From Nitrospirillum viridazoti CBAmc (lineage in GTDB: Bacteria; Pseudomonadota; Alphaproteobacteria; Azospirillales; Azospirillaceae), in the NCBI RefSeq assembly GCF_000730165.1, contig NZ_CP022112.1, positions 723,501 through 787,500 of the forward strand: a DNA stretch of 64,000 nucleotides, read 5' to 3'. Below the pieces are notes generated by a model. The model saw nothing but the letters and a program-made list of their open reading frames with translations, made no database searches and had not been told where the DNA came from. Both the position numbers and the translations under genes were made by a program. Within the stretch, counting starts at the first letter, position 1; the number at the start of each line of letters is the position of its first letter. This document shows, one piece after another, positions 4,487-64,000 of this stretch.

Positions 4487-7400
4487 GTGGAGTTGCAAAC
4501 CGATCCGCCGATCGTCGGCATCGGGGCGTCGGCAGGCGGGGTGAAGGCGCTGCAGGCCTTATTCGAGGCATTGCCCGACGAACCCAACGCCGCCTTCGTC
4601 GTCGTGATCCATCTGAATCCCGAACGGCGCAGCGAACTGGCCAAGATCCTGGCCACCCGCACCCGCATGCCTGTCTCGCAGGTCACCGACCGCGTGCACC
4701 TGCGCAACAACCACGTCTATGTCATCGCCCCGGACAGCGCACTCAACATCGCCGACCACATGATCTCAGCCCTGTCGTTTGACGAGCCGCGGGCTAAGCG
4801 GGCACCCATCGATCTGTTCTTCCGGTCGCTGGCGGCACAGCACAGCGACGGTTTCGCCATCATCCTGACGGGTGCCGGGGCGGATGGTGCCGTGGGCGTG
4901 CGGGCCATCAAGGAGGTGGGCGGCATCGTTCTGGTGCAGGACCCGGACGAGGCGGAATTCGCCTCCATGCCCCGCAACGCCATCGCCACCGACGCCGCCG
5001 ACTTCGTCCTGCCCGTGCGCGACCTGGCCCGGCAGTTGGCGGAATTGTTGCGGAACCGGAAGGATGGCGAGGCGCTGACCGCGCCGGACGACGACGAGAA
5101 TATGATGCGCCGCATCCTGGCCCATGTGCGGGTGCGCGTGGGCCATGATTTCAGCCAATACAAACGTGCCACCATTGCCCGGCGCATCACCCGGCGCATG
5201 CAGGTCACGCAGCAGGAAACGCTGAGCCAGTACCACACCTACCTGCGGGAGCATGCGGACGAGGCCCACGCCCTGTTCACCGACTTCCTGATCTCGGTCA
5301 CCACCTTCTTCCGCGACAAGCGGGCCTTCGATCAGTTGGCGGCCGTGGTGGTTCCCCAGTTGTTCGAAGGGAAGGAGGCGGCCAACACCATCCGCATCTG
5401 GGTCCCTGCCTGCGCCACGGGGGAGGAGGCCTACACCATCGGCATCCTCTTGCTGGAGGAGGCGGCGCGACGCGACGTGCGGCCTGAAATCCAGGTCTTC
5501 GGGTCCGACCTGGACGCCGATGCGCTGGTTGTGGCCCGCGAGGGGTGCTTTCCCCTGACCATCGAGCAGGACGTGCCCGAGGAGCATTTGCGCCGCTATT
5601 TTCAGCGCGAGGGCGACCATTACCGGGTGCGCCGGGAATTGCGCGACACGGTCATGTTCGCCAGCCACAGCATCCTGCGCGACCCGCCCTTTGCCCGGGT
5701 GGACATGGTGTCCTGCCGCAACCTGCTGATCTACCTGGACCGGGAACTGCAGCACCAGGTCTGCACCACCTTCCACTACGCGCTGAACCCCGGCGGCTTC
5801 CTGTTCCTGGGCGCGTCGGAGAACGCCGACAGTCCACCCGGCCTGTTTCGGGCCCTGGACCGCGATGCGCGCATCTACCGCATGATCCCCAATACTGGGG
5901 AACGGCGGACGGCCCTGCCCATCATGCCCAGCGCCCACCATGCGGCACCCAGCCGTGGCGCGCCCGCGTACCGGCCCCTGGGGCCGGGCGGCGACGTGGC
6001 CCTGCACCGCCAGATGCTGGAACGCGTGGCGCCGCCCAGCATGCTGGTGGATGAGACGCACCGCGCCATCCACCTGTCCGAGACCGCCGGCCGATTCCTG
6101 CAGCCCTCGGGCGGGCCCGTCACCACGGTGGCCACCGACATGGTTCGGCCCGAATTGCGCTTCGACCTCGAAGCGGCGTTGCACCGCGCCTTCGACCGGA
6201 AGGAGGCGACGCTGACCCGGCCGCTGGTGGTGAAGTTCGAAGGCCAGCCCCAGCGGGTCTATCTGCAGGTCAAGCCGGTCCTTGAAGAAGGCGATCCCAG
6301 CCGCTACGCCCTGGTGCTGTTCATCGAGGGCGAGACGGTGCGGGCGGACGACGACGGGGACGAGGGCGGCCAGAACCGCGAGCCGACCAACGAGACCATC
6401 CGCCAGTTGCAGGAGGAATTGCAGCTGGCGCAAAACCGCCTAAGGGCCACGCGGGAGGAGTCGGAGGCCACGAACGAGGAGTTACGGGCGGCCAACGAGG
6501 AACTGCAGTCCATCAACGAAGAGTACCGGTCCACCTCGGAGGAGCTGGAGACCAGTAAGGAGGAACTGCAATCCACCAATGAGGAACTGCAGACCGTCAA
6601 CAATGAGCTGAAGCAGAAGCTGGCCAGCGTGTCCCGCGCGCACAGCGACCTGCAGAACCTGATGGCGGCGGCGGATTTCGGCACCCTGTTCCTGGACCCC
6701 TCGCTGCGCATCAAGCGCTTCACGCCCCGCGTGACCGAGCTGTTCAACATCACCGCCACCGACGCCGGCCGGCCCATCACCGACTTCACCCACCAGCTGG
6801 ATTATGACCAGCTGGCGGACCACGCCCACGCCGTGCTGCGGGAGCTGACGCTGCTGGAGCATGAGGTGCAAAGCCGGGGCGGCGGCTGGTACCTGGTCCG
6901 CATCCGGCCCTATCGCACCGTGGACGACCGCATCGACGGCGTGGTGGTGACCTTCTTCGACATCACCGAGCGTCGCCGGGTCGAAGAGGCCCTGCGCGAC
7001 AGCGAGGCGCGGCTGAAGCAGGAGATGCGCCTGGTCGAATTCTCCCGCGCGCCCATTTTTGTCTGGGAGTACGACGACGGCATTGTCCAGTGGAACCGGG
7101 GCAGCGAGGAATTGTACGGCTACTCCCGGGAAGAGGCGAAGGGCCAGGACGTGGCCGAACTGCTGCGGTCGACGCTGGAGGACGGCAGCTTCGACAGTGT
7201 GCGCCAAGCCCTGTCGGAAAAAGGCGCCTGGAGCGGCGAGCTGCGGCACACCACCAAGGACGGCCGGGTACTGACCGTCGAAAGCCAGATCGAGATGATC
7301 AGCGTCGGCGGCCGGCGGCTGGTGCTGGAAAGCACGCGCGATGTCACCGACCGGAAGAAATGGGAACGGCGCCAGCGCCTGCTGCTGGGCGAACTGCGCC

Positions 7401-53553: not shown

Positions 53554-54357
53554 TCAGGCACGCAGGTAACGGCTGGGTGGCACACCCAGCAGGCGCTTGA
53601 ACATGCTGGTGAAGGCGGCGGGGCTGTCATAGCCCAGATCCAGCGCCACGGTGGTCACCGGGTCCCCCGCCACCAGCCGGGGCAAGGCCGCGAACAGGCA
53701 GGCTTGCTGGCGCCAGGCGGCGAAGCTGAGGCCGGTTTCGCCCCGGAACTGGCGGGTAAAGGACCGGCGGCTCATGCCCAATTCATGGGCCCAGCCATCG
53801 ATGGTGGCGTGCGGGTCGGGATCGGCCACGAAGGCGCGGCAGCGGGCCGCCAACCGCGCATCGGTGGGCAGCGGCATGGACAACGGCAGCACGGGCAGCG
53901 ACGCCAGGTCATGCAGCAGCAGGGCCATGATCATGCCGCCACGGCTTTCTGCCGGCACATCATCCACCGGCAGTTCCGCCGCTTCCATCAGCAGGGCATG
54001 CACCAGCGGCGTCACGCCCACCACCTGGCAGCGACCGCCGCCAGGGGCCAGGGTGTCGGGCCCGCGCGCAGCCGGCAGCACGGTCGGGTCGATGTATAGG
54101 CTGCGCATCGCGGCGGGGCCCACCACCACCGCCACCTCATGCACCACGCCGGCCGGGATCCACACGGCCCGCTCCGCCGGGACCATCCAGGCGCCCTGCG
54201 CGGTCGCCACCGTCATGACGCCCCGGATGACATACAGCAGCTGGCAGCGCCGATGCTGGTGCGGCGGCAGCACGTGCCCCGGCGGATAGTCGTTGCCCAG
54301 CGCGAAGACCGGCTGCGGCGCCGTCTCGTAAACCTGGGAGCGGACGTCGCGGACCAT
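53554..54357 (-). CDS. AraC-family transcriptional regulator
   Basis: 267 residues: an N-terminal cupin sensor (YPPGHVLPPHQHRRCQLLYV, with His residues typical of the fold; IPAGVVHEV) and a C-terminal double HTH, HTH_18 (GWAHELGMSRRSFTRQFRGE; VALDLGYDSPAAFTSMFKRL). The class often represses or activates a divergent efflux pump in response to a small molecule. A 21-base direct repeat, the spacing AraC proteins favour, is just upstream. Divergent from the MFS gene at 54515. Confidence 0.92.
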   Translation of the reverse strand: MVRDVRSQVYETAPQPVFALGNDYPPGHVLPPHQHRRCQLLYVIRGVMTVATAQGAWMVPAERAVWIPAGVVHEVAVVVGPAAMRSLYIDPTVLPAARGPDTLAPGGGRCQVVGVTPLVHALLMEAAELPVDDVPAESRGGMIMALLLHDLASLPVLPLSMPLPTDARLAARCRAFVADPDPHATIDGWAHELGMSRRSFTRQFRGETGLSFAAWRQQACLFAALPRLVAGDPVTTVALDLGYDSPAAFTSMFKRLLGVPPSRYLRA

Positions 54358-54376
54358 AAACGTATCTCTCTCCTGG

Positions 54377-54403
54377 TTGGCCCAGTCCCGGAATAGTTTG
54401 GCC
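54377..54403. promoter_or_regulatory. Direct repeat, candidate AraC-regulator operator
   Basis: TTGGCC at 54377-54382 and again at 54398-54403, exactly 21 bases apart (two helical turns), in the divergent region between the AraC gene and the MFS gene. This geometry is the classic binding mode of AraC-family dimers. Whether the half-sites extend beyond six bases could not be judged. Confidence 0.5.
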
Positions 54404-54514
54404 TAAAGACGAAAGCAGGCCGCCAGCATGCGCGCTAGCTTGTCCATCGGCCGCCGAAATGCAAGGGGGCTGGTTGGGAAATCGGGAGGTCGCGGCGCCA
54501 CGCGGCCCCATGGG

Positions 54515-55795
54515 ATGGGAGTGTCACCAGTGAGTCAGGCTGAAAGCGTGGGTGCGTCCGCACCATCCCCCGTGGCGCAGACGGCCATGGGCCAGATTGG
54601 GACCAAGGCCGGGGGCACCGTGTTTTCGGTGCTGGGGGCCATCAGCTTCTGTCATCTGTTGAACGACATGATGCAGTCCATGCTGCCGGCCATCTACCCC
54701 ATCCTGAAGGGCAGCTTCGACCTCAGCTTCAGCCAGGTGGGCCTGGTGACCCTGGTCTACCAGATCACCGCCTCCCTGCTGCAGCCGTTGATCGGCCTTT
54801 ATACCGACGCCAAGCCCAAGCCCTATTCCCTGTCCATCGGCATGGGGTTCACCCTGGTGGGCCTGGTGCTGCTGGCGACGGCGCCCAGCTTTCCCCTGGT
54901 GCTGGCGGCGGCGGCCCTGGTGGGCACAGGCTCATCCGTCTTCCATCCGGAATCGTCCCGCGTGGCCCGCATGGCCTCGGGCGGGCGGCACGGCCTGGCC
55001 CAGTCGCTGTTCCAGGTGGGCGGCAACGCCGGTTCCGCCCTGGGGCCGCTGCTGGCTGCCTTCATCATCGTGCCGCACGGCCGGGGCAGCATCGCCTGGT
55101 TCTCCCTGGCCGCCTTCCTGGGCATGATCGTCCTGGCCAAGATCGGCCTGTGGTACCAGCGCAACGCCAAGCCCAAGGCCGCCAAGACGGTGAAGGAGGA
55201 TCTGACGGGCCTGACGCCACGCCAGGTCGGCCTGGCCTTCGCCATCCTGCTGGCGCTGATCTTCTCCAAATATGTCTACCTGGCCAGCATCACCAGTTAC
55301 TTCACCTTCTATCTCATCCAGACATTCGGCCTGTCGGTGAAGGCGGCTCAGTTGCACCTGTTCATCTTCCTGGGCGCGGCAGCGGTCGGCACCATCGCCG
55401 GCGGGCCCATCGGCGACCGCTTCGGACGCAAACATGTCATCTGGTGGTCCATCCTGGGCGTGCTGCCCTTTACCCTGATCCTGCCCTACGCCAACCTGTT
55501 CTGGACCAGCGTGCTGAGCGGTGTCATCGGCGTCTGCCTGGCCTCCGCCTTCCCGGCCATCGTCGTCTATGCCCAGGAGCTGATGCCGGGCAAGGTCGGC
55601 ACCGTGGCCGGCCTGTTCTTCGGCCTGGCCTTTGGTGTCGCTGGTGTGGCGGCGGCGGCCCTGGGCTGGCTGGCGGACCTCACCAGCATCACCACCGTCT
55701 ATAAAATCTGCGCCTACCTGCCGGCCCTGGGCATCCTGACAGTGTTCCTGCCGGATATCGAAGGGGCGATGAAGCGGGCGCGCCGGGCGGGGTAA
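54515..55795 (+). CDS. MFS efflux transporter (fosmidomycin-resistance Fsr-like)
   Basis: Twelve-helix transporter of 426 residues. The Fsr type is shown by GAISFCHLLNDMMQSMLPAIYPI after helix 1, LVTLVYQITASLLQPLIGLYTD, GSSVFHPESSRVARMASGGRHG and AQSLFQVGGNAGSALGPLLAAF. It exports a toxic compound, likely controlled by the divergent AraC regulator. The start at 54515 is a choice among several in-frame codons (GTG 54521 is another); the upstream extension to 54428 is Arg/Gly-rich and unlikely. Confidence 0.88.
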   Translation: MGVSPVSQAESVGASAPSPVAQTAMGQIGTKAGGTVFSVLGAISFCHLLNDMMQSMLPAIYPILKGSFDLSFSQVGLVTLVYQITASLLQPLIGLYTDAKPKPYSLSIGMGFTLVGLVLLATAPSFPLVLAAAALVGTGSSVFHPESSRVARMASGGRHGLAQSLFQVGGNAGSALGPLLAAFIIVPHGRGSIAWFSLAAFLGMIVLAKIGLWYQRNAKPKAAKTVKEDLTGLTPRQVGLAFAILLALIFSKYVYLASITSYFTFYLIQTFGLSVKAAQLHLFIFLGAAAVGTIAGGPIGDRFGRKHVIWWSILGVLPFTLILPYANLFWTSVLSGVIGVCLASAFPAIVVYAQELMPGKVGTVAGLFFGLAFGVAGVAAAALGWLADLTSITTVYKICAYLPALGILTVFLPDIEGAMKRARRAG

Positions 55796-55884: not shown

Positions 55885-56172
55885 ATGAGCGGACGGAATT
55901 TTAGCCTCACACCTCACTTAAGCGGCTTCGTCGACGAGCAAGTATCCTCGGGGCGCCACCAGAACGCCAGCGAGGTCGTTCGCGAAGCTCTCCGTCGTTA
56001 TGAGAACGATATCCTCATCAACCAGGCGCATGTCGCCGCCTTGGAAAAGGTGGTCGAGGCGGGGGCTACGGATATTGAGCGGGGCGATTACGTCGAAATT
56101 TCTGGCGACGACGGATTGCAGGTTCTGCTGGAGGAACTGCATAGCAAGGCGCGAGCGCGAGTATCGAAGTGA
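55885..56172 (+). CDS. parD: ParD-family antitoxin
   Basis: Antitoxin of 95 residues with a ribbon-helix-helix fold: NFSLTPHLSGFVDEQVSSGR as the strand and helix, then HQNASEVVREALRRYEND, the family signature. The acidic C-terminal half (GDYVEISGDDGLQVLLEELH) would wrap the toxin. It binds DNA to repress its own promoter and neutralises ParE. The toxin gene overlaps its stop by four bases, giving one transcript with a fixed ratio. Confidence 0.92.
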   Translation: MSGRNFSLTPHLSGFVDEQVSSGRHQNASEVVREALRRYENDILINQAHVAALEKVVEAGATDIERGDYVEISGDDGLQVLLEELHSKARARVSK

Positions 56173-56558
56173 GCACATTTCGCCTCACTCGATCTGCCCG
56201 TGCTAATCTTGATGATATATTGGTATGGAGTGCTGAAAACTTCGGCCTGGCGGCAGAGCTTCGATATTCGACGCTCATTATCCAAGCCATCAAGGACGTT
56301 GCGCAGGTCCCCGGCCATCCCTTGATTGTTTGGGAAAGAGTCGGGCGGCGGGAGGTTGGCTTCTACCACATCAGCCATAGTCGCCGGCATGTGCCCAATC
56401 CGGATGATCAGGTCGCCGAGCCGCGGCATTACCTTGTGTTTCGCCATCAGCCGGAAGATGTCATCGAAATTCTGGGCATCATTCACGAACGCATGTTGCG
56501 CCGGAAGGCCGTCCGCGAAATCTTCCGAAAAATCGAGAAGGTGGGATTGCGGCCATAA
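56169..56558 (+). CDS. parE: ParE-family toxin with C-terminal extension
   Basis: RelE/ParE-fold toxin of 129 residues, longer than the usual 95-100. Family residues: FRLTRSARANLDDILVWSAE, AELRYSTLIIQAIKDVAQVP, and RHYLVFRHQPEDVIEILGII leading to the H-E-R-M end block. ParE toxins poison DNA gyrase. The last 20 or so residues (LRRKAVREIFRKIEKVGLRP) are a basic helix past the normal end. GTG start overlaps the parD stop (GTGA). Whether the extension changes the target is unknown. Confidence 0.9.
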   Translation: MSTFRLTRSARANLDDILVWSAENFGLAAELRYSTLIIQAIKDVAQVPGHPLIVWERVGRREVGFYHISHSRRHVPNPDDQVAEPRHYLVFRHQPEDVIEILGIIHERMLRRKAVREIFRKIEKVGLRP

Positions 56559-56628: not shown

Positions 56629-58725
56629 TTACTTGGCCTCGGCCGTCCAGGTATTCAGCCAGCCCAGCACCTCCTGGTGCCACTGGACGGAGTTCTGGGG
56701 CTTCAGCACCCAGTGGTTCTCATCGGCGAAGTAGACCAGCTTGCTGGGCACACCCTTGCGCTGCAGGGCGGTGAAGGCGCCCAGGCCCTGCTCGAAGGGA
56801 ATGCGGAAGTCGCGGCCGCCGTGGATGATCAGCTGTGGCTTCACCCACTGGTCGACATGGTTGGCTGGGTTGAACCGCTCGTACCCGGCCGGGTTCTCCC
56901 AGACCTTGCCGCCGTTCTCCCACTCGCTGAACCACAGCTCCTCGGTGGAATAGCCCATCATGCGGTTGTCGAAGACGCCGTCATGGTTGACCAGGCACTT
57001 CCACGGGCCGTTCCAGTTGCCGGCGATCCAGTTGATCATGAAGCCGCCGTAGCTGGCGCCCAGGGCGCAGGCCCGGTCGCCGTTCAGGAAGGGGTACTTG
57101 GCCAGTGCCGCGGCCCAACCCTTCTGCAGGTCTTCCAGCGGGCGGTCGCCCCAATGCTGGCTGATGGCGTCGGTGAAGGCCTGGCCGTAGCCGGTGGAGC
57201 CGTGGAAGTCGATCATGACCACGGCATAGCCCGCACCGGTGTAGGCCTGCGGATTCCAGCGGAAGCTCCAGGCGTTGCCGAAGGAGCCCTGAGGGCCGCC
57301 GTGGATGATGAAGGCCACCGGGTACTTGTGGCCTTCCTGGTAGTTGGCCGGCTTCACGACATAGCCGTGGACCGTCTCGTTGTTCCAGCCGGGGAAGCTG
57401 AACTGTTCATAGGCGCCCAGGGTGACGTTGGCCAGCGTCCCGGCGCCCACATGGGTCAGCTGCTCCGCCTTGCCGCCCTTCAGCGACACCTTGTAGGCCT
57501 GCGACGGGCCGGACAGGCTGTCGGCCATATAGACCACGCCCTTGTCCCCGCCCTTCACCAGGTCGATGGCCGTCACATGGCCCTCGCCGGTCAGCGCCTT
57601 CACGGCACCCGACTTCACGTCGACGGAGAACAGCTTGGACTGGCCTACGTCGTAGGCCGTGGTCAGCAGGGTGCGGCCATCGGCGGTCCAGGCCAGCGTG
57701 TCGGCGGAACGGTCCCAGCTGGGGTCGATCTCGCGCGTCTCGCCGCTCTTCAGGTCGCGCACCATGATGCCGAAGCGGTCGGCCTCGAAGGTCGGCCGCT
57801 TCATGGCCCGCCAGGCCATCTTGGACCCGTCGGGGCTGAACACGGGGCCCGTGTCCATGGCGGCGTTGCCGGCCGTCAGGTTGACCGGGGCGGTGCTGCC
57901 GTCCATGGGGACCTGCCACAGGTCCAGGTTGGTGCTCCACGGTTCCGTGCGGCCGGCCAGGCGGGCGGTGAAGACCACGGTCTTGCCGTCCGGGCTGATG
58001 GTGATTTCGCTGTCGTCGCCGAAAGGCTTGCCCGGCGCGTCGCCGTCGAAGCCCTTCATCAGCGGCACGGGCGCGCCGGTGGCCACTCCCTCGCCGTTCA
58101 GCGCCAGGGCGAACAGGTGGTTGCGGGTGCCGTCGGCCCATTCATCCCAATGCCGGACGAAGACCTTGTCGAACACCACGCCGCTGGACTTGGCGATGTC
58201 CGCCGGCTTGGCCGGCTTGTCGCCCGTTTCCGTGCCGGGGAACACGGCCATGGAGACGACGATGTGCGTGCCGTCCGGCGCCAGGTTGAAGCTGCCCACG
58301 TCCAGCGGCAGGGCGGTCACCTGGGTGGCTTGAGTGCCAGCCGCATCCGTCTTCCACACCTGCTGGCTACCGGAGCGGCCGGACATGAAATAGAGGCTCT
58401 TGCCATCGGCCGACCAGCGCGGGGTGCTGGCGCCGCCATCGGAAATGGCCAGGCGATGGCCGTCGCCCTTGCCATCGATCTCTTTCACCCACAGGGAGTG
58501 GGCGGCCTTGTTGTTGGCGTAGTCGACGGTGCGGACGTCGAAGGCCAACAGGCGACCATCGGGCGAGACGCGCGCGTCGCTGGCGCGGTCCATCGTCGCC
58601 AGTTCCATCGGCGTCAGGCCGTGCGCGGCCTCTGCCGCCATGGCCACAGGCGAAACGGTGACGGCCAGGGCCAACGCCAGAGGCGCGCCCAGGGCGTACC
58701 CAAGGGCGTATAGGGAACGGTTCAT
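56629..58725 (-). CDS. Prolyl-oligopeptidase-family (S9) secreted peptidase
   Basis: Exported dipeptidyl/acylaminoacyl peptidase-like enzyme of 698 residues. Signal peptide 1-30 (ends AMAAEAAH). Beta-propeller (35-420) with repeats such as VSPDGRLLAFDVRT and ISPDGKTVVFTARL, then the alpha/beta hydrolase domain. Catalytic Ser in GASYGG (about 557), Asp in HGGRDFRIP (about 638) and His in ENHWV (about 669) are all kept. It degrades short peptides in the periplasm. The ATG follows GGAGAG 5-6 nt upstream. Divergent from the ABC operon. Confidence 0.92.
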   Translation of the reverse strand: MNRSLYALGYALGAPLALALAVTVSPVAMAAEAAHGLTPMELATMDRASDARVSPDGRLLAFDVRTVDYANNKAAHSLWVKEIDGKGDGHRLAISDGGASTPRWSADGKSLYFMSGRSGSQQVWKTDAAGTQATQVTALPLDVGSFNLAPDGTHIVVSMAVFPGTETGDKPAKPADIAKSSGVVFDKVFVRHWDEWADGTRNHLFALALNGEGVATGAPVPLMKGFDGDAPGKPFGDDSEITISPDGKTVVFTARLAGRTEPWSTNLDLWQVPMDGSTAPVNLTAGNAAMDTGPVFSPDGSKMAWRAMKRPTFEADRFGIMVRDLKSGETREIDPSWDRSADTLAWTADGRTLLTTAYDVGQSKLFSVDVKSGAVKALTGEGHVTAIDLVKGGDKGVVYMADSLSGPSQAYKVSLKGGKAEQLTHVGAGTLANVTLGAYEQFSFPGWNNETVHGYVVKPANYQEGHKYPVAFIIHGGPQGSFGNAWSFRWNPQAYTGAGYAVVMIDFHGSTGYGQAFTDAISQHWGDRPLEDLQKGWAAALAKYPFLNGDRACALGASYGGFMINWIAGNWNGPWKCLVNHDGVFDNRMMGYSTEELWFSEWENGGKVWENPAGYERFNPANHVDQWVKPQLIIHGGRDFRIPFEQGLGAFTALQRKGVPSKLVYFADENHWVLKPQNSVQWHQEVLGWLNTWTAEAK

Positions 58726-59098
58726 CCAAGCTCTCCGAAAGGCAGGAACCCCATCGGCCTTGCGGCCGCTTGGACGCCGTCATAGCGCAATTCGCCGCCG
58801 TCGCCTACGCCGCTTGACGGCACAAGACCGGCCGCTGCCCGGTCGCGGCGGAAAAGGTGACAGCCCCGTCCCCGCCGTGGCGGAAAAACCGCCAGCGGGG
58901 CGTTGCCGCGCCCCTTCCCCGCTTAAGACCCGACCCGCGCACGGTGGCAGGGATGCTGGCGTTTCAAGCCGTTCTCCCTCCCGGTGAGGGTTTGACCCGG
59001 CGGTTGGCACAGCTTCTGCTAGTATTGCCGATAGTTCCAAGACGACCAGGAACCGCCGGCGCGGATCGGCGGCCACCAAAGCCCGGGAGGTATTTAAG
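58726..59098. other. Divergent intergenic region, S9 peptidase / ABC operon
   Basis: 373 bases with no gene. It contains the -24/-12 promoter match at 59004-59020 on the ABC side. The remainder is GC-rich with short dyads such as CCCCGTCCCCGCC and AAAACCGCCAGCGGGGC. No clear enhancer pair for an NtrC-type activator was recognised, which would usually lie 80-200 bases upstream of the promoter, inside this region. Confidence 0.6.
59004..59020 (+). promoter_or_regulatory. Sigma-54 (-24/-12) promoter
   Basis: TTGGCACAGCTTCTGCT: the invariant GG (59006-59007) and GC (59018-59019) are exactly ten bases apart, and TTGGCAC matches the -24 consensus block. The expected transcript start is near 59031, leaving a leader of about 68 bases to the ATG at 59099. 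The operon itself ends in an NtrC/DctD-type regulator, the class that activates such promoters. Confidence 0.72.
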
Positions 59099-60094
59099 AT
59101 GACGCTCAAGAAAGCCCTGCCCCCAAAGACCCTGTTGGCCGCCCTTCTGGCCGCGTCCGCCCTGTCGCTGTCGGCCTTGCCGGCCGCCGCCGAGGATGTG
59201 GTGCGCCTGGGCAACCTGAAGCTGGCCCACTTCGGCGCCGTGTCCTATACGCAGATGCTGACCGACTGCGGCATCAAGGTGGAGGAGCGGATTTTCGCCA
59301 AGGGCCCCGACATCATGCAGGCCATGGTGGCCGGTGAGCTGGACGTGGGCGCCACCGCGTCGGAGGCCGCCATCTCCGGCCGCGCCGCCGGCGCGCCCAT
59401 CTACATCGTCGCCGGTTTCGCCAAGGGCGGCGCCCGCCTGGTGGCGGCGCCCGAGGCCAAGGTGACCAAGGTCGCCGACCTGAAGGGCAAGAAGGTGGGC
59501 GTCACCCGGGGCGGCATCCAGGAGGTGCTGCTGGCCGCCGAGCTGGCGCAGAACAATCTCACCTGGTCCGACCAGCCGGGCAAGGACGTGCAGATCATCT
59601 ACCTGAACTATCCGGACCTGAACCAGGCCCTGATGCTGAAGCAGCTGGATGCCATCATGCAGACGGAGCCGCAGGGCTCGCAGGCCGTGAACGGCGGCTT
59701 CGGTGTCGAGGTGATGAAACCCTATGACACCGCCATCGGCAGCCCCGTACGCACCCTGGTGATGTCGGAGGAGTTCCACGACAAGCACAAGGCTGTGGCC
59801 GAGAAGTTCATGCGCTGCTTCGTGAAGGCCACCAAGACCTTTATCGACAAGCCGGAGGTGGCATCCAAGTACGTGCGCGAGACGCTGTTCAAGAAGCAAT
59901 TGACCGAGGCCGACTTCAACAGCGCCATGGGCAACGCCCAGTACAGCTATGACATCGACCCGGCCCAGATCCAGATCACGGGCGAGACCATGGCCAAGTA
60001 TGGCGTGTCCAAGATGGCCAAGGTGCCGACCGCCACCGACTATGTGAAGCTGGACCTGCTGGCCGACGCCAAGAAAGACCTTGACATCCAGTAA
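59099..60094 (+). CDS. ABC transporter substrate-binding protein (NitT/TauT family)
   Basis: Periplasmic binding protein of 331 residues. Signal peptide 1-31 (ends AAAED). The fold of the nitrate/sulfonate/bicarbonate group: VVRLGNLKLAHFG at the start, KGPDIMQAMVAGELDVGATA, AGFAKGGARLV, and KVADLKGKKVGVTRGGIQEV. Loading is probably of a small anion such as a sulfonate, nitrile-derived or pyrimidine compound; no ligand residues are diagnostic. It is the first gene of the sigma-54-type operon and is followed by a hairpin terminator, which would make it more abundant than the membrane parts. Confidence 0.92.
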   Translation: MTLKKALPPKTLLAALLAASALSLSALPAAAEDVVRLGNLKLAHFGAVSYTQMLTDCGIKVEERIFAKGPDIMQAMVAGELDVGATASEAAISGRAAGAPIYIVAGFAKGGARLVAAPEAKVTKVADLKGKKVGVTRGGIQEVLLAAELAQNNLTWSDQPGKDVQIIYLNYPDLNQALMLKQLDAIMQTEPQGSQAVNGGFGVEVMKPYDTAIGSPVRTLVMSEEFHDKHKAVAEKFMRCFVKATKTFIDKPEVASKYVRETLFKKQLTEADFNSAMGNAQYSYDIDPAQIQITGETMAKYGVSKMAKVPTATDYVKLDLLADAKKDLDIQ

Positions 60095-60101
60095 GCGCCT
60101 G

Positions 60102-60132
60102 GGCCCGCCGCCGGCCAAGCGGCGGGCCTTTT
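60102..60132 (+). terminator. Intra-operon hairpin/attenuator after the binding protein gene
   Basis: Perfect nine-pair stem GGCCCGCCG / CGGCGGGCC, nine-base loop, then TTTT. Located 8 bases past the stop codon and 37 bases before the permease ATG. A partial terminator here would set the binding protein above the permease and ATPase in abundance, as in many ABC operons. Confidence 0.75.
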
Positions 60133-60168
60133 CCCATCCGCCTTTCCGCCTTTAAGGGGAGTACCCGA

Positions 60169-60990
60169 ATGCGGCGTAACACCTGGTTGGCGGCCCTGCA
60201 GGGGGCCGTCGTGCCGCTCGTGCTGCTTGCCATCTGGCAGGCGGCGTCCAGTTCCGGCCTGGTCAACGCGAAGATCCTGCCCTCGCCCGTGGCGGTGGCC
60301 GTGCGCTGGTGGGCCTATCTCGCCCCGGCCGAGCCATATGACCCCGCGAACGGCGGCTACATCGCCTGGCTGTTCTCCGGCGAGCTGATCATGGACGCCA
60401 TGGGCAGCCTGTATCGCGTCGTCATGGGCTTCCTGGTGGGGGCAATCCTGGCCCTGCCGATGGGCCTGGCCATGGGCGCCAGCCGGGCGGCGTTTCGTTG
60501 GCTGAACCCCTTGGTGGAGGTGCTGCGGCCCATTCCGCCCATCGCCTACATCCCGCTGTCCATCCTGTGGTTCGGCCTGGGCAACCCACCGGCCATTTTC
60601 CTGATCTCGCTGGGCGCCTTCTTCCCCGTGCTGGTGAACACCATCGCCGGGGTGCGCCAGGTAGACGGCATCTATCTACGCGCCGCCCGCAATTTGGGCG
60701 CCGGGCCCCTGACCATCTTCCGCCGCGTCATGCTGCCGGCGGCCACGCCCTACATCCTGTCGGGCGTGCGCATCGGCATCGGCACCGCCTTCATCGTCGT
60801 GATCGTGTCGGAGATGATCGCCGTGAACAACGGCCTGGGCTTCCGCATCCTGGAGGCGCGGGAGTATTTCTGGTCCGACAAGATCATCGCCGGCATGCTG
60901 ACCATCGGCCTGCTGGGCCTGGCCATCGACAGCGGCGTCACCCGCATCAACAACCATCTGCTGCGCTGGCACCGCGGGCTGGAGCACTGA
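60169..60990 (+). CDS. ABC transporter permease (NitT/TauT family)
   Basis: Inner-membrane permease of 273 residues with six predicted helices. An N-terminal basic start, then VPLVLLAIWQAASSSGLV as helix 1. The cytoplasmic EAA loop that meets the ATPase is RAARNLGAGPLTIFRRVMLP. The remaining helices match SsuC/TauC. Starts at 60169 after AAGGGGAG. Co-transcribed with the ATPase, 3 bases downstream. Confidence 0.92.
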   Translation: MRRNTWLAALQGAVVPLVLLAIWQAASSSGLVNAKILPSPVAVAVRWWAYLAPAEPYDPANGGYIAWLFSGELIMDAMGSLYRVVMGFLVGAILALPMGLAMGASRAAFRWLNPLVEVLRPIPPIAYIPLSILWFGLGNPPAIFLISLGAFFPVLVNTIAGVRQVDGIYLRAARNLGAGPLTIFRRVMLPAATPYILSGVRIGIGTAFIVVIVSEMIAVNNGLGFRILEAREYFWSDKIIAGMLTIGLLGLAIDSGVTRINNHLLRWHRGLEH

Positions 60991-60993
60991 ACC

Positions 60994-61785
60994 ATGTCCG
61001 ACATCCTGATCAACCACGTCTACAAGCGCTTCGCCGTCCCGGGGAACGAGGTGGTGGCGCTGAAGGACATCAACCTGGACATCGCGTCGGGGGAGTTCGT
61101 CTGCCTGCTGGGCCCCTCCGGCTGCGGCAAGTCCACCCTGCTGAACGCCATCGCCGGCTTCTCCCACCCCACGGAGGGCAGCATCACTGTGGGCGGCCGC
61201 CCGGTGGTGGAACCCGGGCCCGACCGGGGCATGGTCTTCCAGGAATACGCCCTGTTCCCCTGGATGACGGTTTTCAAGAACGTCCGCTTCGGGCTGGAGG
61301 TCAAGGGCGTAGCCAATGATGTGGCCGACGCCAGGGTGCGCGAGCTGCTGGACATGCTGGGCCTGTCGGAATTCGGCGAGCGCTTCCCCAAGGATCTCTC
61401 CGGCGGCATGCGCCAGCGCGTCGCCATCGCGCGCGTCCTGGCGCTAGACAGCCCCGTCCTGCTGATGGATGAGCCCTTCGGCGCGCTGGACGCCCTGACC
61501 CGCCGCTCCCTGCAGGATGAACTGCTGAAGATCTGGGCGCGCTTGGGCAAGACCATCGTCTTCGTCACCCATTCCATTGAGGAGGCCATCTACCTGGCTG
61601 ACCGCATCGTCGTCCTGACCTACCGCCCCGGCACTGTGAAGCGCGATATCAGGGTGGAGATGCCGCGACCGCGCGACGCCGCCTCGCCCGAGTTCAACAC
61701 GCTGAAGCGCGAACTGTCCCGCCTGGTGTCGGAGGAGCAGCAGCGTCATGAGGCGGCGGAACGCGCCGGCCTCACCACCGACTGA
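60994..61785 (+). CDS. ABC transporter ATP-binding protein (NitT/TauT family)
   Basis: ATPase of 263 residues. Walker A GPSGCGKST, Q-loop in MVFQEYALFPW, signature LSGGMRQRVAIAR, Walker B VLLMDEPFGALD, and H-loop VTHSIEEAIYLADR. The VFQEYALFPW and PFGALDALTRRSLQDEL sequences are typical of SsuB/TauB. Its last 38 bases overlap the sensor kinase gene, so transport and sensing are made from one message. Confidence 0.95.
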   Translation: MSDILINHVYKRFAVPGNEVVALKDINLDIASGEFVCLLGPSGCGKSTLLNAIAGFSHPTEGSITVGGRPVVEPGPDRGMVFQEYALFPWMTVFKNVRFGLEVKGVANDVADARVRELLDMLGLSEFGERFPKDLSGGMRQRVAIARVLALDSPVLLMDEPFGALDALTRRSLQDELLKIWARLGKTIVFVTHSIEEAIYLADRIVVLTYRPGTVKRDIRVEMPRPRDAASPEFNTLKRELSRLVSEEQQRHEAAERAGLTTD

Positions 61786-63580
61786 TCCCCACTTGGCCGG
61801 CCCCTTCCCCTTCACGGCGCGCCTGCGCGGCATGAGCACCGGCGGCGCCCTGGCGCTGCTGCTGGCGGCGGTGGGGGCCGTGGGGATATGGGTGCTGGCC
61901 GTAGGCCATGCCGAGCGGCGGGCGGTGGAGGCCGTGGCCGCCGACGCCCGTCATCGGCTGGAGATCTACGCCAACAACTTGGACAGCGCGGTGGAGCGTT
62001 TCGACTACCTGCCCACCGTCGCTGCGCGGGATCCAGCGGTGGCGGCGCTGGCGGCGGCCGGCTTCGGCCATACCGACCCGGTTGAGGTCGACCGTGTGAA
62101 CCGCTATCTGGAAGCGGTGAACGCAAGTGCCGGATCCGCCGTCCTGTACCTCATGGACGCCGAGGGGCGGACCGTGGCGTCCAGCAACTGGAACCGGCCG
62201 GATAGCTACGTGGGCGTGGACTTTTCCTACCGGCCCTATTTCAGGGACGCGCGTGACCAGGGCGTGGGCCGTTTCTATGGCGTGGGCACGGTCACCCGGC
62301 TGCCCGGCTATTTCATCGCGGCACCGGTGGAGCGGGACGGACGTCGCGTGGGCGTGCTGGCGGTCAAGATCGTGCTGGACGCGCTGGAGGATGGCTGGCG
62401 CACCTCTCACGATGCGGTGCTGGTGGCCGACCGTTTCGGTATCGTCTTTTTGTCGTCCAATCCGGAGTGGAAGTTCCGCGCCCGCCGGCCGCTGGACCCG
62501 GACACCGTGACGTACCTGAATGAGACCCGTGAATATGTCGGGCTGGACCATCCACCCCTGGTGCTGCCCCGCTCCCTCCGGACCCATCCGGATCTGCTGG
62601 TGGAACGGGGGCTCAGCCGTTATGGCTGGACCATCGCGCTGGCCGCAGACGCCCACCCCGTGGCCCAGGCCGCCGCCACGGCCCGCATCGGCCTGGCGCT
62701 GCTGTTGCTGCTGGCGCTGGCCATCGGCCTCTATGTACGCCAGCGGGTGAAACGCCTGCGGGAACAGCGGCTGGCCAAAGCGGCCCTGGACCGCGCCTAC
62801 CAGGACCTGGAACGCCAGGTGGAAGCGCGCACCGCGGACCTGCGCGACGCCCAGGCCGAACTGGTGCAGGCCGCCAAGCTGGCCATGATCGGCCAGGTGG
62901 CGGCGGGCGTGACCCATGAACTGAACCAGCCGCTGACGGCCCTGCGCGCCCTGGCCGACAACGCCCGCCTGCTGCTGGACCAGGGCCGGCAGGCGGAGGT
63001 CAGCCAGAACCTGACCCACATCGCCGGGCTGGTGGACCGCATGGCCAAGATTTCCAGCCAGCTGCGCAATTTCTCCCGCCGCAGCGAGGGACCGGCCCAG
63101 CCTGTTGCCCTGCCCGGCGCGGTGCAGGAGGCGCTGGCCTTGCTGGACCGCCGCCTGAAGGAGGCGCGGGTCCAGGTGACGGTGGACGTGCCGGAGGTGA
63201 CGGTGGCCTTCGATCCCGTGCGGCTGCAACAGGTGCTGGTCAACCTGATCCGCAACGCGGAGGATGCGACGGCCGGGGTGGCCGAACCCCACATCGCCAT
63301 CACCGCCGTGCCCGCCCTACTGGACCAGCGCGCCGCCGTGCGGGTGACGGTGGCCGACAACGGCCCGGGCCTGGACCCGGCGGTGCGCGACCGGCTGTTC
63401 GACCCCTTCGTCACCACCAAGCCGGGCGGCCAGGGCCTGGGCCTGGGCCTTGCCATCTCCCTGGCCATCGCCCAGGAATATGGCGGGCAGCTGGAGGCCC
63501 GCGATGGGGACGACGGCGGGGCCGTCTTCCTGCTGACCCTGCCTTTGATTTCAGTTGAGCATGATGACGCAATCACCTGA
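61748..63580 (+). CDS. DctB-like sensor histidine kinase
   Basis: Membrane kinase of 610 residues. Helix 1 near 31-50; periplasmic sensor (about 52-310) with the PAS/dCache pattern of C4-dicarboxylate sensors (VGVDFSYRPYFRDAR, GVGTVTRLPGYFIAAPV, ALAADAHPVAQAAAT); helix 2 near 313-332; coiled linker; HisKA with the His in AAGVTHELNQPLTALRA; HATPase motifs NLIRNAEDA and GQGLGLGLAISLAIA. The start overlaps the ATPase gene; GGAGGAG is 9-11 bases upstream. It pairs with the NtrC/DctD-like regulator and ends in its start. Its ligand is probably the transported compound, not necessarily a dicarboxylate. Confidence 0.93.
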   Translation: MRRRNAPASPPTDPHLAGPFPFTARLRGMSTGGALALLLAAVGAVGIWVLAVGHAERRAVEAVAADARHRLEIYANNLDSAVERFDYLPTVAARDPAVAALAAAGFGHTDPVEVDRVNRYLEAVNASAGSAVLYLMDAEGRTVASSNWNRPDSYVGVDFSYRPYFRDARDQGVGRFYGVGTVTRLPGYFIAAPVERDGRRVGVLAVKIVLDALEDGWRTSHDAVLVADRFGIVFLSSNPEWKFRARRPLDPDTVTYLNETREYVGLDHPPLVLPRSLRTHPDLLVERGLSRYGWTIALAADAHPVAQAAATARIGLALLLLLALAIGLYVRQRVKRLREQRLAKAALDRAYQDLERQVEARTADLRDAQAELVQAAKLAMIGQVAAGVTHELNQPLTALRALADNARLLLDQGRQAEVSQNLTHIAGLVDRMAKISSQLRNFSRRSEGPAQPVALPGAVQEALALLDRRLKEARVQVTVDVPEVTVAFDPVRLQQVLVNLIRNAEDATAGVAEPHIAITAVPALLDQRAAVRVTVADNGPGLDPAVRDRLFDPFVTTKPGGQGLGLGLAISLAIAQEYGGQLEARDGDDGGAVFLLTLPLISVEHDDAIT

Positions 63581-64000
63581 TATCGCACCTATAGTCCTGT
63601 TCGTGGATGATGAGGAGATCATCCGCCTGACCGTGCGCCAGACGCTGGAGCTGGCGGGTTTGGCCGTGACGACCTACCCGACTGCGGAGGCGGCGCTGGC
63701 CGATATCTCGGCCGACACGCCCGGCATCTTGGTGACCGACGTGCGCCTGCCGGGGATGAGCGGGCTGGACCTGCTGTCGCGGGTACGGGCGCTGGATGCG
63801 GAACTGCCGGTGGTGCTGGTGACCGGCCAGGGCGATGTCTCCATGGCGGTGCGCGCCATGCAGGACGGCGCCTACGACTTCATCGAGAAGCCCTTCGTCA
63901 CCGACCATTTCGTGGAGGTGATCCGCCGCGCCCTGGAGAAGCGCGCCCTGGTGCGGGAGAACCGGCGCCTGCGCCAGGCCCTGGACCAGAACGCGGCGGT
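63561..64000 (+). CDS. NtrC/DctD-like response regulator, partial (cut by window edge)
   Basis: First 146 residues of a regulator. Receiver: VDDEEIIRLTVRQTLELAG, phosphoacceptor Asp in GILVTDVRLPGMSG, Thr/Lys in VLVTGQGDVSMAVRAMQDGA and FIEKPF, then the linker KRALVRENRRLRQAL. The receiver and this linker are typical of the NtrC/DctD group; the AAA+ and Fis domains lie beyond the window. It begins within the kinase gene by 20 bases (ATG 63561, or 63564). As an expected sigma-54 activator it could drive the -24/-12 promoter at 59004. No AAA+ domain is visible, so this is inferred. Confidence 0.85.
   Translation, partial: MMTQSPDIAPIVLFVDDEEIIRLTVRQTLELAGLAVTTYPTAEAALADISADTPGILVTDVRLPGMSGLDLLSRVRALDAELPVVLVTGQGDVSMAVRAMQDGAYDFIEKPFVTDHFVEVIRRALEKRALVRENRRLRQALDQNAA

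Follow-up and report, generated by a model that had tools for sequence, protein, structure and literature searches.

We analysed a 64,000-nucleotide stretch of the 7.38-Mb genome of Nitrospirillum viridazoti CBAmc (contig NZ_CP022112.1, positions 723,501 to 787,500 of the forward strand, or G000:C3:723501-787500), hereafter the window, the right end of which carries an ATP-binding cassette (ABC) importer with a candidate sigma-54 promoter and a two-component pair of the DctBD type. The first gene, on the plus strand as are the four that follow, encodes a substrate-binding protein of the NitT/TauT/SsuA type (59099..60094, an open reading frame with NMT1/NMT1_2 domains), whose nearest named relatives belong to Nitrospirillum strains (94-97%). 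It is followed by an ABC permease (60169..60990, BPD_transp_1) and an ABC ATPase (60994..61785, ABC_tran); an NMT1-type binding protein with one permease and one ATPase is the make-up of a NitT/TauT-type ABC importer. A DctB-like sensor histidine kinase (61748..63580) comes next, then an NtrC/DctD-type response regulator that starts at 63561, leaves the window at 64000 and runs on to G000:C3:788398. This regulator occupies 5562-6899 of locus L009 (G000:C3:781500-801000, where a coordinate is the window position minus 57999). After it, past the window, the gene of a beta-keto-acid cleavage enzyme (BKACE) lies at L009 6913-7749, its ATG (taken at 6913) 13 nt 3′ of the regulator stop. The original prediction had the kinase gene overlapping both of its neighbours. 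The overlap with the regulator gene is there, as the ATG at 63561 lies 20 nt inside the end of the kinase gene, whereas the overlap with the ATPase gene depends on an uncertain kinase start, being present with a start at 61748 and disappearing with the in-frame ATG at 61832.

Domain searches bore out the DctB-like kinase and NtrC/DctD-like regulator that had been read downstream of the importer. HisKA and HATPase_c were both over cut-off in the kinase; dCache_1 was slightly under it (42.9 bits against 45), and the top PDB match of the sensor domain was DctB (3e4o, E 2e-39). The regulator, 445 aa long, contains a Response_reg receiver, a Sigma54_activat AAA+ domain (8.5e-65) with GAFTGA, and a Fis-type HTH_8, so that all three features to be sought past 64000 were present. 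With a dCache-type sensor kinase and such a regulator the pair is of the DctBD type. Its candidate target promoter fits as well, with a −24/−12 element and paired dyads upstream, though the dyads of the window are degenerate copies that do not match the strict motif defined below. The linked DctA or DctPQM transporter that marks DctBD proper was not found, the linked transporter being of the NitT/TauT ABC type. The genome encodes RpoN, and sigma-54 activator domains gave 13 strong and 4 weak further matches in it. As one of many such activators, the window regulator is not to be assumed the default partner of the promoter.

The candidate promoter element, TTGGCACAGCTTCTGCT, lies at 59004..59020 on the plus strand, ahead of the binding-protein gene, with GG at 59006-59007, GC at 59018-59019 and exactly 10 bases in between. 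From this spacing, a transcript start near 59031 is predicted. Matches were ranked by a score of our own, and a site was counted at 6.5 or more in the main comparison. A score of at least 7 was reached by two sites in the entire 64 kb, both strands included, and 6.5 was reached in 24 of 1700 random 311-nt stretches from the same loci (∼1.4%, real sites not having been removed). Taken alone, the element is no more than suggestive; its conservation in relatives, described next, raises it above a chance match.

The comparison covered 85 loci, namely the window locus, 4 on plasmids (the four best plasmid-borne importer homologues of 342 matching records) and 80 on genome contigs (the best 80 of 123). 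The plasmid homologues, from Rhizobium lusitanum, two Azospirillum and Sinorhizobium fredii, have binding proteins 54-59% identical, and all four carry a match of the same spacing before the binding-protein gene. A pair was scored as present when, on the same strand, a kinase above 200 bits was found 2-5.5 kb downstream and a regulator above 300 bits 3.5-7.5 kb downstream. Among the 70 loci with enough flank, the site was found in 32/32 with a pair downstream and in 3/38 without one (Fisher P 1.5e-16, a value overstated since the loci are related). The other 15 loci, with insufficient flank, comprised 5 with the site, 9 without, and L121, which has both pair and site. The three exceptions were looked at individually. 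In Rugamonas rubra (L094) the contig that bears the importer also bears the pair, ∼9 and ∼11 kb downstream, with a regulator sharing 82% identity with an importer-linked one. The other two, L013 and L014, come from Azospirillum and have a likely regulator elsewhere on the same plasmid. PilS/PilR-like genes downstream in L074, L100, L128, L132 and L135 gave weak matches and were counted as pair-less (the L132 kinase was identified as PilS-like, the other four were judged alike from the match pattern only). The GG/GC spacing thus recurs in homologous loci, as the original prediction of a sigma-54 promoter would have it, and these comparisons of sequence provide strong evidence for a wiring of promoter and pair.

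A search for enhancer dyads at 58800-58980 had been proposed, and two enhancer-like sites are present there, in degenerate form, on the plus strand. Site A (58847..58861) is a degenerate dyad of GCGG half-sites, in a block kept in 6 Nitrospirillum loci. Site B (58879..58893) is a GGCGG-N5-CCGCC inverted repeat, also in a block kept in Nitrospirillum loci; it fails the strict 12-base motif used for counting. The two are 32 bp apart, the same spacing as in Azospirillum relatives. The dyad counted was GCGG-N4-CCGC, with one mismatch allowed and three of the four spacer bases A/T. It was scored in 66 site-bearing loci: 41 of the 85 (site at 6.5 or more), and 25 of 27 fetched later (site at 6.0 or more), the latter 27 being 26 of the family plus L170, with L155 and L163 left out; some strains enter twice (L013/L153, L070/L173). 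At least one dyad was found in 51 of the 66 and at least two in 39, where Markov shuffles expect 6.9 and 0.35, and none was found in the 44 site-less loci. Paired dyads are ∼32 bp apart, and in Azospirillum their positions recur at −109 and −77. We also looked for a wider regulon, with one exact pair pattern in 13 Azospirillum genomes and one pattern in the N. viridazoti genome. An exact dyad pair stood at the importer promoter in 11 of the 13 (G425 has none, and G409 only a GC-rich pair elsewhere in the genome), and no other exact pair with A/T-rich spacers in both dyads was found in them. With the pattern GGCGGAAAA-N{0,3}-GGTKACA, site A was the sole match in its own genome.

No strict dyad was matched in 15 of the 66 loci, namely the window, the other Nitrospirillum, L012, L015, L170, L073, L077, L121, L144 and L146. 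Other inverted repeats are found upstream in L012, L015, L170 and two Pandoraea loci, and the likely recognition helix of the regulators in these loci reads PHR and PKA, versus mostly PRK or PRR elsewhere (further variants are ARK in L148 and PKK in L121). Perfect matches to what we take to be the IHF-type consensus were detected in 27 of the 66 site-bearing loci, 19 at −28 (0.15 expected), all of them in betaproteobacterial records. In trees, the importer-linked regulators occupied at least three separate DctD branches. The importer-linked label needs 4 changes, and well supported branches force 3 (68 rows) or 4 (41 rows); as the other rows were picked by similarity, these counts are compatible with repeated recruitment and with loss alike.

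Of 82 genomes of the family, 29 were found to have the importer; in genus g2, which we take to be Azospirillum, the figure was 19 of 45. We searched these 45 genomes for the importer-adjacent regulator of L151 at E ≤ 1e-165. It was present in exactly the 19 importer genomes and in none of the other 26 (Fisher P 4e-13, again overstated, the genomes being related). The pair adjoins the importer in only two of the Azospirillum loci fetched (L151 and L164), in other orientations. In Azospirillum sp. B510 (L013) it shares a plasmid with the importer and stands there by itself, its annotations reading no more than ATP-binding protein and sigma-54 regulator. The window kinase and regulator both have matches at this place, and its coordinates are those of the 87% regulator in G405, a g2 genome. 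In Azospirillum oryzae (L014) a 57% regulator is on the importer's plasmid. The Azospirillum regulator is therefore likely dedicated to the importer though usually unlinked, judging from this co-occurrence. The control built into the locus, as first proposed, is seen in the gene run of the window, but it is not obligatory, because in Azospirillum the regulator usually sits elsewhere. Downstream of the importer in L162 and L169, the opposite strand gives a partial sigma-54 activator match (46%, query 149-373); this is a different regulator, 93% alike between the two genomes.

We consider it very probable that the locus is a substrate-induced, sigma-54-dependent uptake operon run by its own DctBD-type pair. 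A small carboxylate in the periplasm would be bound by the DctB-like dCache sensor, upon which the kinase would phosphorylate the DctD-like regulator. The phosphorylated regulator would bind at the paired dyads, ∼110-160 bp upstream of the −24 element, and its GAFTGA AAA+ ring would open RNA polymerase-RpoN at 59004-59020. Transcription would then yield the importer, followed by the kinase and regulator, in a positive autoregulation, and by the BKACE enzyme, which probably helps break down the imported compound.

Several observations weigh against this. The dyads of the window are degenerate and not of the strict type, and its promoter lacks a perfect IHF-type site. Neither site nor pair was found in 35 of the 70 scorable orthologous importer loci, meaning that the importer can work without this control. 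Three Herbaspirillum genomes whose importers are site-less carry a 55-56% regulator elsewhere, 71-76% identical to an importer-linked regulator, so that presence of the regulator alone does not imply control of the importer; in four other site-less genomes searched (G466-G469), no regulator above 46% was found. The shared ancestry of the relatives makes all counts overstate independence. Finally, a GC-rich hairpin followed by TTTT lies on the plus strand at 60102..60132, in the gap between the binding-protein and permease genes. It is a possible attenuator or mRNA-stabilising structure, and it may lower expression downstream and so uncouple the permease, ATPase and regulator from the binding protein. 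A strong hairpin with changed arms is found in this gap in 6/6 Nitrospirillum and 2/3 sister-genus loci. The shuffle z of the window hairpin is only −1.29, and it was not among the results of the terminator scan. A strict hairpin script was positive in 3 of 96 loci, a figure that does not establish absence in the others because the script missed some hairpins that folding reveals. The single self-regulated message of the original prediction is consistent with the gene order, while its full length is not assured given this hairpin.

Control of an ABC importer by a DctBD-type pair, initially held to be unusual, is not so in kind. According to the accessible part of PMC7962211, AauSR of Pseudomonas is a third DctBD-type system, which together with RpoN drives the ABC importer AatJQMP from a target with two dyads of the TTCGG-N4-CCGAA type. 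As far as the accessible parts of PMC7962211 and PMC7386598 go, the likeness to the window locus comprises the DctBD-type pair, the RpoN promoter, the two upstream dyads, the ABC importer, the linked locus and a regulator that raises expression of its own locus. The importers differ, AatJQMP belonging to the acidic amino acid type and having two permease parts, that of the window being of the NitT/TauT/SsuA type with one permease; the dyads differ too, most window relatives having GCGG-N4-CCGC, and the BKACE enzyme is a further difference. The window locus has neither an AatJ-type importer nor TTCGG-N4-CCGAA sites.

The AatJ binding protein also takes part in AauSR signalling, and an AatJ-AauS contact has been modelled (PMC7386598, accessible part). 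By analogy, the binding protein of the window could be the receptor, its ligand-loaded form touching the kinase, so that transport protein and sensor make one signalling unit. The loss of aatJ in P. syringae, which lowers the AauSR-dependent response (same part of PMC7386598), speaks for such a scheme, as does the place of the binding-protein gene, first in the operon and behind the same promoter. We nevertheless regard it as rather unlikely, for a DctB-type sensor domain is part of the kinase itself, and the kinase-regulator genes are not linked to the binding-protein gene in most of the 19 Azospirillum genomes.

Three other known systems bear on an operon run by its own DctBD-type pair. DctBD-DctA shares the sensor domain and the regulator, and relatives of the window regulator adjoin SDF symporter genes in 4 loci (L205, L209, L210 and L211), but the transporter class differs. 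No GCGG-type dyad was found upstream of dctA in these four loci, nor a convincing −24/−12 site upstream of dctA in L205; by eye, dyads of other types can be made out ahead of the dctA genes in these sister systems, where present. MifSR with its C5-dicarboxylate permease in Pseudomonas is also a DctBD-type pair (PMC7962211, accessible part), and resembles an orthologous pair with a −24/−12 site and a PRK10406-family permease in two Herbaspirillum genomes; the window pair differs in its link to an ABC importer. SsuABC, TauABC and NrtABCD share the binding-protein fold and the importer make-up, and differ in that the window protein is under every named cut-off. In our literature search, covering few subscription papers, we found no NitT/TauT-type importer described as controlled by a DctBD-type pair. 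With AauSR, wiring of this kind is already known; the novelty lies in the family of importer, in the conservation of the enhancer, and in regulators drawn from at least three DctD branches.

As to the substrate, the binding protein is of the SsuA/TauA/NrtA type in fold and sequence, and it reached none of the sulfonate, taurine or nitrate cut-offs (TIGR01728 for SsuA, 142.5 against 163.5 bits). Its predicted structure (predicted local distance difference test score, pLDDT, 86.8) matches SsuA/TauA folds at ∼20% identity, which leaves the substrate unsettled. The BKACE gene (PF05853, 234.3 bits, over cut-off) stands 3′ of the regulator in 9/9 Nitrospirillum and sister-genus loci examined and is lacking in most other importer loci. 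In eight metagenome-assembled loci (L091, L109, L112, L116, L120, L122, L124 and L129; four with a betaproteobacterial or Ferrovaceae label, the other four with Proteobacteria only), it comes directly after the ATPase gene; the available sequence shows neither a pair nor a site at 6.5 or more, and in four of these loci the flank is incomplete. Since it follows the ATPase also where site and pair are lacking, BKACE is tied to importer function rather than to control. All 17 importer-linked copies aligned have GFENN where Kce has GFEDN.

The second clue comes from the two Herbaspirillum genomes (L244 and L245), in which the orthologous pair adjoins the PRK10406-family permease with its own −24/−12 site, and the importer is without one. 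The permease-linked regulator nests within the importer-linked betaproteobacterial clade; a third genome with such a regulator is G465, the permease neighbour having been seen from two of the three. PRK10406 is labelled only as an MFS family transporter in the database, and we take it to be KgtP, the 2-oxoglutarate permease. Because of this KgtP-family link and the DctB-like sensor, our guess is that the ligand is a carboxylate, perhaps a C5 keto-dicarboxylate. Neighbouring genes were also tried as substrate clues; the conserved ones scanned in betaproteobacterial loci mostly had housekeeping roles or dealt with peptides or sugars (ffh, cytochrome c assembly, ribonucleotide reductase, PabB, glucosidases), which left BKACE and the KgtP-family link as the clues retained.

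A bolder proposal would be that the operon is dedicated to taking up and breaking down a C5 keto-dicarboxylate, for instance 3-oxoglutarate or 2-oxoglutarate, and that no fewer than three DctD lineages have captured the importer promoter, the dyads having been adapted to some of these lineages. It builds on the descent from carboxylate sensors, the KgtP-family pairing in Herbaspirillum, and the cleavage of beta-keto acids by BKACE; we hold it as a speculation with a small chance of being right. In A. oryzae (L014, 1-3001), genes annotated as nitrate reductase and cobA lie ∼6-9 kb upstream of the importer and speak against a ligand of the carboxylate type guessed above, or at any rate favour a different substrate; both are absent from the matching stretch of B510.

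These same genes, and the resemblance of the binding protein to the SsuA/TauA/NrtA group, would suit a sulfonate, taurine or nitrate importer under RpoN nitrogen/sulfur control, the adjacent pair acting elsewhere. This we judge improbable: the binding protein stays under every named cut-off, the site and the kinase-regulator pair occur together, a nitrate reductase gene was seen only in L014 among the neighbourhoods looked at, and the neighbours scanned, which were selected clusters, yielded no recognisable sulfonate pathway or desulfonation gene. That the −24/−12 match is fortuitous, the operon being transcribed from another promoter, is hardly credible, since even if comparable scores occur in ∼1.4% of random stretches, the site accompanies every scorable pair, is absent from 35 of the 38 other loci, and a simple scan revealed no sigma-70-type match in the operon region.

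Other features lie nearby in the window. An S9 prolyl oligopeptidase-like gene (56629-58725), divergent from the importer operon, is kept at 85-99% in 5/5 other Nitrospirillum loci examined and had no match in three sister-genus loci; given this distribution, it may share an upstream region with the operon within Nitrospirillum. Beyond it are a ParD/ParE-type toxin-antitoxin pair with overlapping genes (55885-56558; PF03693, PF05016) and an AraC-type regulator divergent from an MFS transporter (53554-55795).

If the operon is run by its own DctBD-type pair, this importer family gains, in alpha- and betaproteobacteria, a regulator, a promoter code and a ligand class that can be tested. In Azospirillum, a lone sensor-regulator pair is linked to a likely target. 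The co-varying regulator branches and dyads around one orthologous transporter would provide a natural setting for testing how enhancer-binding proteins change in concert with their sites.

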